Shown piece after piece: positions 25,384 to 31,307 of a stretch of DNA of 64,000 bases. The position numbers and the translations under genes were made by a program. Location: positions 413 through 64,412 of the forward strand of contig NZ_AOIJ01000030.1 in NCBI RefSeq assembly GCF_000337175.1, read 5' to 3'. This DNA is from Natrinema gari JCM 14663. GTDB taxonomy: Archaea > Halobacteriota > Halobacteria > Halobacteriales > Natrialbaceae. A model generated the notes under the pieces. The model had not been told where the DNA came from and did no database searches. It worked only from the letters and a program-made list of their open reading frames with translations. Position 1 is the first letter of the stretch. The number at the start of each line of letters is the position of its first letter.

Positions 25384-26091
25384 TCAGCGGTCTTCTACCG
25401 GGAGTCGATCACGAAACGCCGCCGACAGTGCGTCGCTGACGCCCGCAGCGAGGGCAGGCGGCTCGAGATCGCCATCGGTTTCGGTCCCATCCAGCGGCGG
25501 GACCGTCGTGACCGGGTAGCCGGTCATCCGCTCGAGTTCGTCGGGATTCGTCCGCTCGGCGGTCGTTTCGCCTGCGTACTCGTTGACGACGATCCCACAG
25601 ATATCGATGTCCCGGGCCTCGAGCGCATCGACCGAGAGTGCGGTGTGGTTGAGTGTGCCCAGTCCCGACCGCGTGACGACGACTGCCGCGGCCGCGAGGT
25701 CGGCGACGAGATCGAGGACCTCCCGGTCGCCGGCCAGCGGGACGCGGAGGCCGCCGATCCCCTCAACGACCGGGACCGGGGTCGCCTCGATCTCCCGCTC
25801 GCAGGCCACACGGAGCGCCTCGTAGGAGAGGTCCTCCCCGGCAACCTCGGCCGCGACCCGCGGTGCAAGCGCTGGCTCGAGATAGCGGGGACAGGTCGCG
25901 GCCGCCGGAGCGCCACAGGCCGCGGCGACGAACGCCGCGTCGTCGTCCGGCGGATGCCCGGTCTGGGCCGGTTTGATCGCCCGTGCGTCGTAGCCCTCCT
26001 CGCGGAGCAGGCGCGTGAGCCCGGCCGTCACGACGGTCTTCCCGACACCCGTTCCGGTGCCGACGACGGCGATCGGTTGCCGGGCGCTCAC
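25384..26091 (-). CDS. bioD: Dethiobiotin synthetase
   Basis: 235 aa, starting at a GTG (26089-26091) that overlaps the bioF stop as GTGA. The P-loop VVGTGTGVGKTVVTAGLTRLL (residues about 9-29) and the following AIKPAQTG (the K-P-x-Q-T/S-G motif) define BioD. VPVVEGIGGLRVPL (E-G-x-G-G) and LGTLNHTALSVDALE are also in place. It forms the ureido ring of dethiobiotin from DAPA, CO2 and ATP; in BioU pathways it is reported to accept DAPA carbamate. It is the last gene of the biotin operon. Confidence 0.95.
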   Translation of the reverse strand: MSARQPIAVVGTGTGVGKTVVTAGLTRLLREEGYDARAIKPAQTGHPPDDDAAFVAAACGAPAAATCPRYLEPALAPRVAAEVAGEDLSYEALRVACEREIEATPVPVVEGIGGLRVPLAGDREVLDLVADLAAAAVVVTRSGLGTLNHTALSVDALEARDIDICGIVVNEYAGETTAERTNPDELERMTGYPVTTVPPLDGTETDGDLEPPALAAGVSDALSAAFRDRLPVEDR

Positions 26092-27311
26092 AACAGTCCG
26101 ACCTCCTTGCCCGCGGCACGAAACGCCTCGAGACAGGCGATGATGTCGCTCCGATCGTGGGTAGCCATCGGAACGACGCGGATGCGACTGGTTCCCTCCG
26201 GAACCGTCGGCGGCCGGATCGCCGGCGCGATGACGTCCCGTTCGCGGACCCCGTCGGCGAGCGTGATGGCGTCCTTGCGGTCGCCCACGATGACGGGGAG
26301 GATCTGGGAGTCGCCCCACACTTCGAAGCCCATCGATTCGAGGCCGTCCCGGAGATGGGCGACGTTCTCCCAGAGTCGCTCCCGGACACCGCCGTGACGG
26401 GCGACGTGGAGCGCCTCGCTTGCCGCTGCGGCCGCCGGCGGCGCGAGCCCGGTCGAGAAGACGAACGAACGCGCGTCGTTGAGCACGCATTCGATCAACT
26501 CCGCGCTGCCGGCGATATACCCGCCTTGACTGGCCAGCGCTTTCGAGAGCGTCCCCATCTGTACGTGGACGCGGTCCTCGAGCCCTTCCGCCTGAACGAC
26601 GCCGCCGCCGTTCGCGTAGAGGCCGGTCGCGTGGGCCTCGTCGACCATCACCCACGCGCCGAACTCCGCGGCGGCGGCACAGATCGCATCAAGGGGCGCG
26701 ACGGTGCCGTCCATGCTGAACACCGAATCGGTGACGATCAGCCAGGACTCGTCGGCCGGCTCCCGGCCGTTTCGAGCAGCCCGCTCGGCCCGGTCCGCGA
26801 GCTTCGATCGCAGGCTCGCCGCATCGCAGTGATCGTAGACGACCGTCTCGGCGTCCGTGAGTCGACAGCCGTCGATGATGCTCGCGTGATTCAACTCGTC
26901 GGAGAAGACGATGTCCGGCTCGAGCGCCGTGATCGTGCCGACGTTCGCGGCGTACCCCGACGAAAAGGCCAGCGCGCGCTCGGTGCCTTTCACCTCGGCG
27001 AGTTGCCGCTCGAGGTCCCGGTGGACCATCGTATCGCCGGTGACGAGTCGGCTCGCCCCGGCACCCGTCCCGACGGTCGCGGCGGCCTGCCGGGCCGCGT
27101 CCTGTATCCGCTGGTCGTCGGTCAATCCCAAGTAGTTGTTCGAGGCGAAGACGAGCGCCTTCGCCGTCTCGAGGACGGGCAACTCGCCGCCCGATGGCTC
27201 GGCGAAGTAGCCGTGCTCGGCAACCCGGTCGACGGGCGAGAGGGTACGTTTCAAGTCGTGCTCCTCGAGCGTCTCGAGTCGGTTCTCGAGGTCGAACCCG
27301 CGGTCGGCCAT
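26088..27311 (-). CDS. bioF: 8-amino-7-oxononanoate (KAPA) synthase
   Basis: 407 aa from the ATG at 27309-27311 (MADRGFDLENRL); an ATG 24 bp upstream is the alternative. It is a fold-type I PLP enzyme of the alpha-oxoamine synthase family: FASNNYLGLTDDQRI, GAGASRLVTGD, DELNHASIIDG, WVMVDEAHATGLY (Asp on PLP) and the Schiff-base lysine in GTLSKALASQGGYIAG. In this context it joins pimeloyl thioester to alanine to give KAPA. Its stop overlaps the bioD start by 4 bp. Because the related 2-amino-3-ketobutyrate ligase looks similar, the assignment rests partly on the neighbours. Confidence 0.93.
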   Translation of the reverse strand: MADRGFDLENRLETLEEHDLKRTLSPVDRVAEHGYFAEPSGGELPVLETAKALVFASNNYLGLTDDQRIQDAARQAAATVGTGAGASRLVTGDTMVHRDLERQLAEVKGTERALAFSSGYAANVGTITALEPDIVFSDELNHASIIDGCRLTDAETVVYDHCDAASLRSKLADRAERAARNGREPADESWLIVTDSVFSMDGTVAPLDAICAAAAEFGAWVMVDEAHATGLYANGGGVVQAEGLEDRVHVQMGTLSKALASQGGYIAGSAELIECVLNDARSFVFSTGLAPPAAAAASEALHVARHGGVRERLWENVAHLRDGLESMGFEVWGDSQILPVIVGDRKDAITLADGVRERDVIAPAIRPPTVPEGTSRIRVVPMATHDRSDIIACLEAFRAAGKEVGLL

Positions 27312-27455
27312 TCGGCTAAACCGACTCAGCGCCATGGTTTGATTCTCACGGTTCGGATCGAGTGGCCGGATCGGCGTTGCTGCGGCTCGAGGAGCCCGAT
27401 ATGCGATAGTTCCGGGTGGCGTCGTCGTCTCCCATCGAAACGACCCCCCACGGGG

Positions 27456-28514
27456 TTAGAAGCCGGGCAGCAGGTCGGCCGGGCCGAAGACGCCGTACTC
27501 GCCCGCTCGGTTCCGGCGGACGCCGGCTTTCAGATAGCCCAGCGCGGGCCCGTTGACGTTGGCCTCCATGCTCGTGTCGTCGCCCAGTTGGAACGTGTTC
27601 GTCGCCGTCTCGCCGTCGAAGGTGCGGCCGGTCACGCGAACCGTCGTCGTCGTCGGCTTCTCGTCGTTGCGAACGTCGAGAACCCCGCCGACGGTGACGT
27701 CGTCGGCGTCACAGACGCCCGCGCGCTCGAGCAGGACATCGTCGGCGTGTTCCATGTCCTCGAACTCGATGACGCCGTCGTGGTCGTCGATGATGGCTTC
27801 GATCTCGGACTCGGAGAGCGCGCGCGCGGTTTCGATGTCGTACCCGGGCAGGTGGGCGATGTCCTCGCGGACGGTGCCGCGGTTGTCCTCGTATCCGGAC
27901 TTGAGACCGACGCCCCACCAGATGTCGACGTCAGTGACCTCGACGAACGACTGGGCGGCTAGCGCGGCGGCACCGGTCAGCAGGCCGGGTGTCGCGCCCG
28001 CCCCGCAGATGAACGTGATGCCCGCGTCCTCGAACTCGTCGCTGCGCTCGTCGAGCATGTCGATCACGCGCGAGCGCTTGAGCACGTCGATCATGACCCC
28101 GGAGTAGCCGCCGTCGACGAATCGGTCGGCGGTGCGGGGAATGAAGTCGTGTTCGTAGTTCGGCAGCGCCAACAGCACGGCGTCGATCCGGTCGCCGCGG
28201 TCGATGATCTCCTGAATGGCGTCCTCGCTCGGACGGGCCTGACTCGAGGCGACGACGCCCCTATCCTCGCCGTGTTGTTTGACGCCGCTCTCGGCGGTCG
28301 CCGCGCCCGTGCCGCCGTCGGTCGCGACCTCGCTGTCGATGTTCCCTTCCGTCGCCGCCAGCAGTTCGTCGACGTCGAGGCCGTCGAAGTCGATGGCGAC
28401 GCCGTGGCGGTCACACGCCGCGACGGGCGTCAACGCGTCCTTGTGCTGGCTCACTTCGAGCGCTCGTCGGCCGATACCTCCGGTTCCGAGTACCGCAAAC
28501 GTGATTTCGTCCAT
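27456..28514 (-). CDS. bioU: BioU-like saccharopine-dehydrogenase-type oxidoreductase of the biotin operon
   Basis: 352 aa. The N terminus EITFAVLGTGGIGRRALEV is a Rossmann NAD(P)-binding motif (G-x-G-x-I-G). Further on are DAVLLALPNYEHDFIP, MIDVLKRSRVIDML, ITFICGAGATPGLL and a C-terminal strand-rich half. Such proteins are usually labelled saccharopine dehydrogenase-like. The gene lies between bioB (30 bp upstream) and bioF, and no bioA is in the operon, which is the context of BioU. BioU, first described in cyanobacteria, replaces BioA in turning KAPA into DAPA. The cyanobacterial enzyme sacrifices its own lysine; whether Lys146 or another residue plays that part here is unknown. Confidence 0.75.
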   Translation of the reverse strand: MDEITFAVLGTGGIGRRALEVSQHKDALTPVAACDRHGVAIDFDGLDVDELLAATEGNIDSEVATDGGTGAATAESGVKQHGEDRGVVASSQARPSEDAIQEIIDRGDRIDAVLLALPNYEHDFIPRTADRFVDGGYSGVMIDVLKRSRVIDMLDERSDEFEDAGITFICGAGATPGLLTGAAALAAQSFVEVTDVDIWWGVGLKSGYEDNRGTVREDIAHLPGYDIETARALSESEIEAIIDDHDGVIEFEDMEHADDVLLERAGVCDADDVTVGGVLDVRNDEKPTTTTVRVTGRTFDGETATNTFQLGDDTSMEANVNGPALGYLKAGVRRNRAGEYGVFGPADLLPGF

Positions 28515-28544: not shown

Positions 28545-29648
28545 TCAGTCGTCGCTCGGTTCCGCGCCCGCACTCGCCGTCTCGGTCGCCGAGTCCGCCG
28601 CCTCGCTGTGACGGGCCTTGACCGCTTCCGGATCGAAGTCGTTCGTGTCCGTATTGGGCTCCAGCCCCGCACGCTCGACAATCTCCAAGTCCTCGCCGGG
28701 TGACTGCCCGCCGGTCGTCAGGTAGTCGCCGGTGAGGAGACCGTCCGCGCCGGCCTCGAGCGGCAGGTGCTGCTCGTCGGGTGCCAAGTTGACCTCACGG
28801 CCGCCGGTCAGGCGGACCCGCGACTCGGGGTGGAGCAGTTTGTATACCGCAACCGTCTTGACGATCTCGTCGGTCGAGATGTCGACTCCTTGCTCGGCCA
28901 GCGGCGTTCCCGCGACCGGATTGAGCACGTTCACCGGCAGCGAGGAGATCCCGATGTCCTGCAGGGCGATCGCGGCCTCGACCCGGTCGGTCGGCGTCTC
29001 GCCCATCCCGAGGATCACGCCCGCACAGAGGTCCATCCCGGCCTCCTTGGCCACCTCGAGGGTCTCTACCCGGTCCTCGAAGCTGTGCGAATCGACGATC
29101 TCGGGGAAGTAGTTCGGCGAGGTCTCGATGTTGTGATTGTAGTGATTGATCCCTTCCTCGGCGAGGATCGCGGCCTCTTCCTCGGTCAGAATGCCCAGTG
29201 AGGCGTCGACCTCGAGATCGCACTCGTCGCGGACGCGGCGGATCGACTCGAGGACTTCTTCCCACTCGTCGGGGCGGTGTTCCTTCGAGACGCCCTTCTC
29301 GGCGACGACGATGCCGAACCGCTGGGCACCGTCGCGTTCGGCCCGTTTCGCGGCCTCGAGGATCTTCTCGGGGCCGAGGAAGCCGTAGGTGTCGATGCCG
29401 GTGTCGAAGTGGACCGACTGCGCACAGAAGCCACAGTCCTCGGCGCAGTTGCCGGCCTTCGCGTTGACGATCGAGCAGGCGTCGACCGTGCCGTCGCCGA
29501 AGTGATCGCGTACGGCCGCACCCGCCTCCGCGAGCGCGTCGGTCGGCTGGGCCATCAACGCGACCCCGTCGGTCCGATCGAGCCGCTCGCCGGCCATCAC
29601 CCGCTCGAGCGCGTCGTCGACCGTCTCGTTTCCAGTCTCGTAAACCAC
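28545..29648 (-). CDS. bioB: Biotin synthase (radical SAM)
   Basis: 367 aa from the GTG at 29646-29648, chosen because the TATA box (29671-29680) lies about 27 bp upstream, making this a leaderless start. The radical-SAM cluster motif is CAEDCGFC (C-x3-C-x2-C) followed by AQS. Also present are YNHNIETSPNYFPEIV and AGVILGMGET, plus VNVLNPVAGTPL, all typical of BioB. It inserts sulfur into dethiobiotin. First gene of the operon bioB-bioU-bioF-bioD. The C terminus has an extra acidic low-complexity tail. Confidence 0.96.
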   Translation of the reverse strand: MVYETGNETVDDALERVMAGERLDRTDGVALMAQPTDALAEAGAAVRDHFGDGTVDACSIVNAKAGNCAEDCGFCAQSVHFDTGIDTYGFLGPEKILEAAKRAERDGAQRFGIVVAEKGVSKEHRPDEWEEVLESIRRVRDECDLEVDASLGILTEEEAAILAEEGINHYNHNIETSPNYFPEIVDSHSFEDRVETLEVAKEAGMDLCAGVILGMGETPTDRVEAAIALQDIGISSLPVNVLNPVAGTPLAEQGVDISTDEIVKTVAVYKLLHPESRVRLTGGREVNLAPDEQHLPLEAGADGLLTGDYLTTGGQSPGEDLEIVERAGLEPNTDTNDFDPEAVKARHSEAADSATETASAGAEPSDD

Positions 29649-29669
29649 GCTATGATGTGTGGTTAACAA
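29638..29669 (-). promoter_or_regulatory. BirA-type operator over the bioB start
   Basis: On the minus strand the site reads TTGTTAACC, 14 bases, GGTTTACGA (half sites 29661-29669 and 29638-29646). This is the architecture of the BirA operator, whose consensus is TTGTAAACC-N14/15-GGTTTACAA, with related TTGTTAAC forms in archaea and Gram-positives. It begins right after the TATA box and covers the transcription and translation start of bioB, so a bound repressor would block initiation. No birA gene is in the window. Confidence 0.82.
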
Positions 29670-29782: not shown

Positions 29783-31033
29783 TTACCGCGGTGTCTCCGC
29801 GCCCCACTTCTCGAGGGCCGTCGCCAGTTCCGCGTGGTCGTCGGCGTAGGTCTCGAGGTCCGTGCCCGCCATCGAGGCCTCGACGGACTGTCGGAGCGCT
29901 TTCGCACCCGCGTGCGTGCCGTCCGGGTGGCCGTGGATGCCGCCGCCGGCCTGCACGATGATGTCGGTTCCCAGCGCGTCGATGAGTTGATCGACCACGC
30001 CGGGATGCAGTCCGCCGGAGGCGACCGGGAGGACGGGCCTGAGACCGTGACAGTCGCTCGTGAGCCACTCGTTGATCCCCGGCGTGTCCTCGTTCGCGAG
30101 CTTTCCCAACCCCGCGGTCCCGGTGTGGATGTGGTCGACGCCACAGAGGCGGGCGATCTGGGCGATGACGCGCATCGATACCCCATGGTGGTCCAGTCGG
30201 TCGAAGGCGGCGTGCATCGCGCGGTGGGCGTGGATCGCCAGCCCGTGGTCCTCGCAACGCTCCCGAACCGACTGGACGGCCGCCCAGCCACAGGTGATCA
30301 CGTCGACCATGACGAACCCGCCGCCGTGTTCGGCGACGAGGTCGACCCGCTCGAGCATCTCGGTGGTCTCGGCGGTCACGTTCACGAGGTAGTCCTTGCG
30401 CTCGCCGGTCTCCTCCTGGGCGCGGTCGCGGGCGGCGAGGCTCTCGGCGAGTCGGTCCGCGAAGGGGTTAAACGCCTGATCGGTGAGGTTCTCGTCGTCT
30501 TTCAGCAGGTCGACACCGCCGCGCCAGGCCTCCTCGCCGATCCGGGCATGGGCGTCGGTCGAGAGGCCCACCTTGGGTTTCGGCACCGTCGCCAACACCG
30601 GCCGCTCGCCCGCGTCCAGTTTCTCGCGCGCGACGCTTGGCCCGAACTGCGGGCCCGGGAACCCGCTCGTGATCGATTCCGGCCAATCGCAGTCCTCGAG
30701 TCGGATCGAGTCGACGGCTTTCATCCCCAGGATGTTGCCGGCGATACACGAGAGGATCTGGGGCATGCTGCCGGCCTCGAACAGTGCGGTCGGGTACGCG
30801 ACCGTAACCGTCCGTCCGTCAATGCCACAGGCGACTGCACCGAGCTCCGTGAGTTCGTCCTCGTCGACGTGTAAGGCGGCCCAAGTGCCGTTCGATGACT
30901 CCGAGGCGACGCGACTCGCCGCCGCCTCCATCGACATCCCCGCGGCCGGTTCGATCGTGAATTCACAGACTAGTTCCGTCCCAGCGGGCTCGTATCCGAG
31001 GTCCAGAAAGTCGTCGTACTCGATCCCTGTCAT
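29783..31033 (-). CDS. rbcL: Type III ribulose-1,5-bisphosphate carboxylase
   Basis: 416 aa from the ATG at 31031-31033, about 30 bp after a TATA-like element on the minus strand (31060-31067); an ATG at 31048 is the alternative. Active-site segments are all present: KPKVGLS, the carbamylated lysine loop GGVDLLKDDENL, HAHRAMHAAF, HIHTGTAGLGKLA, SGGLHPG and GGGIHGHPDG. This is the archaeal form III, which acts in the AMP/nucleoside degradation route by turning ribulose bisphosphate into two 3-phosphoglycerates, not in a Calvin cycle. AMP phosphorylase and ribose-1,5-bisphosphate isomerase genes are not in the window. Confidence 0.95.
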   Translation of the reverse strand: MTGIEYDDFLDLGYEPAGTELVCEFTIEPAAGMSMEAAASRVASESSNGTWAALHVDEDELTELGAVACGIDGRTVTVAYPTALFEAGSMPQILSCIAGNILGMKAVDSIRLEDCDWPESITSGFPGPQFGPSVAREKLDAGERPVLATVPKPKVGLSTDAHARIGEEAWRGGVDLLKDDENLTDQAFNPFADRLAESLAARDRAQEETGERKDYLVNVTAETTEMLERVDLVAEHGGGFVMVDVITCGWAAVQSVRERCEDHGLAIHAHRAMHAAFDRLDHHGVSMRVIAQIARLCGVDHIHTGTAGLGKLANEDTPGINEWLTSDCHGLRPVLPVASGGLHPGVVDQLIDALGTDIIVQAGGGIHGHPDGTHAGAKALRQSVEASMAGTDLETYADDHAELATALEKWGAETPR

Positions 31034-31307
31034 GATACCGTCCGACATACGACGCGTCGAGTAATAGTGCTTGTGCCGGCTCCCGGCGAGTCGCTACGAA
31101 TGGGCAATATATGCCGACTTTAGCCACGAACGACGATTTTCCCGATTGTCTCTCGTTCCGCTCGTATTCTGCCCGATCGTCAACCCCAACCACCATCGAT
31201 GGCCGCTAACGGCCAGTACACTAATATTTCACTTCCCAAATCTATCGCGCCGGGAAAAATTCCGAAAATTAAAGTCGTGTGATAATCCACTAGTAGCAAG
31301 CGGGTTC

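Follow-up and report, generated by a model that had tools for sequence, protein, structure and literature searches.

The gene at positions 27456-28514 on the minus strand of the window (the whole stretch of 64,000 nucleotides of Natrinema gari JCM 14663 DNA that was analysed) is very probably a bioU, whose product fills the BioA step of the biotin pathway. This identification follows from the sequence and fold of the protein, the conserved operon position, the co-occurrence with bioB and the lack of any bioA-grade aminotransferase, and on those grounds the BioU-type enzyme proposed in a preliminary description of this DNA is upheld. The protein adds an archaeal member to an enzyme family that is already known, and it is mislabelled in public records, where it is called 'transcriptional regulator' or 'hypothetical protein'. 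The features of the locus, in the order of transcription, are as follows.

28545..29669, minus strand: bioB, biotin synthase (TIGR00433, 337 bits for a cut-off of 225; start codon approximate)
27456..28514, minus strand: bioU, very probable BioU-type 8-amino-7-oxononanoate (KAPA) amination enzyme, 352 aa, ATG start
28470..28487, minus strand: glycine motif GTGGIG of bioU, nucleotide-binding, residues 10-15, a Rossmann strand-helix in the model
28077..28079, minus strand: codon of K146, equivalent to the donor Lys124 of Slr0355 in the alignment to 6ir4
27747..27749, minus strand: codon of H256, equivalent to His233 of Slr0355 in the alignment to the BioU entries
26088..27335, minus strand: bioF, 8-amino-7-oxononanoate synthase (TIGR00858 is the best family, 390 bits, just below the cut-off of 426)
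about 25384..26094, minus strand: bioD, dethiobiotin synthase (TIGR00347, 106 bits for a cut-off of 83; start approximate)

The minus-strand gene order is bioB, bioU, bioF and bioD, with 30 bp between bioB and bioU, 120 bp between bioU and bioF, and an overlap of about 7 bp between bioF and bioD. The preliminary description had read the operon as bioB, an oxidoreductase, bioF and bioD, and the open reading frame and its neighbours do lie there; the tight spacing that it cited is likewise seen between bioB and bioU and in the bioF/bioD overlap, the 120-bp gap having gone unmentioned. The GC content of bioU by codon position (0.70/0.44/0.89) matches that of the adjoining genes, which is what a genuine coding sequence should show. 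The genome around the window is Natrinema-like, with 98% protein identity to N. altunense AJ2. On the same strand, 113 bp upstream of bioB, lies a gene for a type III RuBisCO (29783-31048), a pairing that was not found to be general among the related loci.

When compared with all PDB sequences using phmmer, the 352-aa protein gave significant matches only to the chains of Synechocystis Slr0355/BioU (E 2e-89 to 6e-88), to which it aligns in two stretches, residues 6-54 and 86-352. Residues ~58-83 form a low-confidence, acidic, Gly/Ala-rich segment within the nucleotide-binding domain, which is 6-71 residues long in homologues and, as a difference from the cyanobacterial enzyme, is absent or short in Slr0355. 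The glycines G10, G12 and G15 of the GTGGIG motif are invariant in the haloarchaeal set. Among protein families, NCBIfam NF047886 (BioU) is the best by far (349 bits, E 2e-104), but the score falls short of the 600 bits required for naming (the equivalog cut-off), as it does in all of the 292 haloarchaeal genomes searched, none of which passes; the names in the public records can be explained by this unmet cut-off, which seems to have been chosen to suit proteins nearer to the founding members. The preliminary description had stated that most databases label the protein as saccharopine-dehydrogenase-like, and this is not supported by the public records seen, which carry the two names given above; no Pfam family matches the protein above its gathering score.

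The predicted structure points to the same family. An AlphaFold model built with 34 haloarchaeal sequences (pLDDT 83.7, pTM 0.83) retrieved the five BioU entries as its top five Foldseek matches (E about 1e-38 to 1e-40, TM 0.84-0.91), and with VIA-align the five were again on top, with Z 41.5-42.1 and rmsd 2.1-2.3 over 320-322 residues at 45% identity, whereas the next family, carboxyspermidine dehydrogenase, reached Z 20. The Synechocystis sp. PCC 6803 enzyme (Slr0355; 6IR4, 6ITD, 6K36, 6K37, 6K38) shares the whole-chain fold (Z 42), as well as the donor lysine Lys124, His233, the glycine motif and a biotin pathway with bioF, bioD and bioB and without bioA; it differs from the window protein, which is archaeal and encoded within a bioBUFD operon.

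Other functions were weighed against these data, and three possibilities, namely a saccharopine dehydrogenase, a regulator of transcription and an overlooked bioA, were rejected for the reasons that follow. A saccharopine dehydrogenase, or another amino-acid or amine dehydrogenase of the same fold, would account for the common two-domain architecture, given that lysine dehydrogenase (Z 18.6) and saccharopine reductase (Z 16.4, 15% identity) are also found by VIA-align with the model. However, these values compare with Z 42 and 45% identity for BioU, the dehydrogenases being at 10-18% identity; in addition, the BioU-specific lysine and histidine are invariant and no such family appears in the PDB sequence search, so that this function is extremely unlikely. 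A fold match to true saccharopine reductase together with a lack of BioU-specific residues, which the preliminary description had named as evidence against its own proposal, did not emerge, the best fold match being BioU (Z 42) and not saccharopine reductase (Z 16). A role as transcriptional regulator has in its favour only the label in the public annotation, carried by RefSeq-derived plasmid records; we give it next to no probability, since no DNA-binding domain family is found in Pfam or NCBIfam and the alignment with an enzyme of solved structure extends over the entire chain. Finally, the BioA step could be carried out by a remote class-III aminotransferase, with the operon protein as an accessory, and the host genome (4.02 Mb, 88 contigs, 99.95% complete) does encode five class-III aminotransferases, whose specificities are predicted. 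The best of them nevertheless scores 215 bits for bioA where the TIGR00508 cut-off is 405, and for each of the five a different family gives the better fit (diaminobutyrate transaminase, 720 bits; ArgD/LysJ, 388; acetylornithine-family, 299 and 288; HemL, 307). None adjoins the bio genes or lies in the bio operon, and none in the genome exceeds the bioA cut-off, while in every haloarchaeal bio operon that was read this place is taken by bioU; a remote aminotransferase is therefore very unlikely. The genome search thus found no bioA gene, whose expression from elsewhere in the genome would have refuted the proposal according to the preliminary description, and in the 292 haloarchaeal genomes no class-III aminotransferase exceeds the bioA cut-off either. 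BioA itself (DAPA aminotransferase, TIGR00508) catalyses the same step as BioU but is an unrelated PLP enzyme with catalytic turnover.

In Synechocystis, the amino group of BioU Lys124 is joined to KAPA in an NAD(P)H-dependent conjugation; carboxylation of the conjugate follows, an NAD(P)+-dependent release yields DAPA-carbamate, and with the loss of its lysine each BioU molecule acts once (PMC12915131, PMC7133116). Haloarchaeal BioU in all likelihood performs the KAPA-to-DAPA step, and by homology to the Synechocystis enzyme the reaction, the carboxylation and the single turnover are most likely shared. KAPA made by BioF would be converted by BioU to 7,8-diaminononanoate (DAPA, as the 7-carbamate) for use by BioD. 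The side-chain amino group of K146 would condense with the ketone of KAPA, the conjugate would be reduced by NAD(P)H, and CO2 would then add; oxidation by NAD(P)+ would free the product with the lysine nitrogen and leave allysine in the protein, allowing one turnover per BioU molecule. Provided that the protein is a BioU, we consider a single turnover likely.

The correspondence of K146 with Lys124 and of H256 with His233 is anchored by mutant PDB entries, since the K124A entries 6ITD and 6K37 read Ala at the K146 column and the H233A entry 6K38 ('conjugated with DAPA') reads Ala at the H256 column; the placement of His233 in the active site relies on this H233A-DAPA conjugate entry. The set of homologues comprised 148 distinct proteins from loci and genomes, 145 of which span the lysine site, the other three being fragments. 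A lysine occupies the donor site in all 145, so that no Lys-less haloarchaeal variant was found among the proteins spanning it, and both K146 and H256 are invariant in the 138 full-length homologues, each at least 66% identical to the window protein. Of 119 positions that are invariant in haloarchaea and aligned to Slr0355, 82 are identical in the cyanobacterial protein and 37 differ. The alignment at Lys124, suggested by the preliminary description as a way to decide between a suicidal and a catalytic form, therefore returns a lysine that is invariant in the haloarchaeal set, which is the residue pattern of the suicide type, and judged by this residue haloarchaeal BioU is probably the single-turnover form.

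The conservation of the lysine fits suicide chemistry, and at the level of sequence it would be compatible with repair or with an outside amino donor as well. BioU could make DAPA as a multi-turnover catalyst, its lysine being regenerated or a free amine (e.g. L-lysine) serving as the donor with K146 otherwise employed. In support of such a catalyst it can be said that turnover is beyond the reach of sequence data, and a non-suicide form of BioU reportedly occurs in Haloferax mediterranei. On the other hand, none of the haloarchaeal proteins examined, among them a Haloferax larsenii protein, departs from the donor lysine or from the DVLKRS motif around it, and no Lys-less variant was found; we therefore regard multiple turnover as rather unlikely. 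The specific case in which the donor lysine is kept, with K146 restored in each cycle (e.g. by re-amination of allysine) or acting as a free-amine relay, appears quite improbable, and if true it would make this a suicide enzyme that can be repaired.

In 292 haloarchaeal genomes, BioU was found in 107 (E 1e-30 or better), bioB in 128 and both in 106, with a bioF-family match in 105 of the 107 BioU genomes; the Fisher value for the co-occurrence of BioU and bioB is 5e-56, a figure that is descriptive only since it ignores the kinship of the genomes. The order bioB-bioU-bioF-bioD is present in 56 of 64 related haloarchaeal loci, and the other eight consist of two bioU-bioF-bioD arrangements (close to the end of a contig or with a detached bioB), five bioB-bioU pairs and one fragment. 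In a comparison of the neighbours of 32 loci, only bioB, bioU, bioF and bioD were general, a downstream RFC large-subunit gene being found in one group. When the phylum was searched for BioU outside the haloarchaea, 247 genomes gave 10 matches, all of them in the window's own order, and this confined distribution makes an origin by transfer from bacteria plausible. The whole bioBUFD unit was also observed on large plasmids in several haloarchaea (loci L102, L103, L104 and L105), a location which suggests that it moves between strains.

BioU is missing from 22 of the genomes with bioB, and 20 of their neighbourhoods were read. In 15 of these, bioB stands without bioF, bioU or bioD nearby. Remnants of bioU occupy the slot in three others (L118, L120 and L121), for example, in L120, stretches of 25 and 28 residues interrupted by a frameshift and a stop, and in the remaining two (L122 and L123) bioB adjoins bioF and bioU is gone; at these loci bioD is absent or fragmentary. 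BioU seems to be lost when the pathway is lost, and this pattern, as an association only, fits a role of the protein in the pathway. The bioB-only genomes perhaps use scavenged dethiobiotin. The bioU frameshifts of L094 and L096 fall where the contigs contain N, and they resemble gaps in the assembly rather than marks of pseudogenes.

If bioU is counted, the late biotin pathway is complete in about one third of the sampled haloarchaea, where annotation leaves a hole and a 'transcriptional regulator'. By its sequence, the window protein extends the BioU type with donor lysine to archaea, and it offers genetically tractable hosts for measuring the cost of a one-shot enzyme. A literature search that did not include the original 2020 BioU paper found no discussion of haloarchaeal BioU, and an earlier report is possible. 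With regard to the source of the pimelate moiety, the host genome gave no match at all to BioW and none to BioC above the cut-off. The BioB of the window scores higher against PDB 8VDW (275 bits) than against E. coli BioB 1R30 (177 bits), and it has no cysteine at the E. coli RFC and EAC sites (Cys97 and Cys128), one cysteine being kept at DLCAG; it may carry a different auxiliary cluster ('type II').

A comparable haloarchaeal vitamin enzyme is Thi4 of Haloferax volcanii (HVO_0665, PMC4215014), for which a single turnover at the expense of the enzyme's own side chain, Cys165, has likewise been proposed; it differs from BioU in fold, in the vitamin concerned and in the donor, a cysteine sulfur rather than a lysine nitrogen. 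The host of the window also encodes a Thi4 thiazole synthase (L229:1156-2085, minus strand) with the motif REITCVDP, the context of Cys165 in H. volcanii Thi4, and since this is the cysteine type, the same cell may depend on self-consuming enzymes for two of its vitamins.
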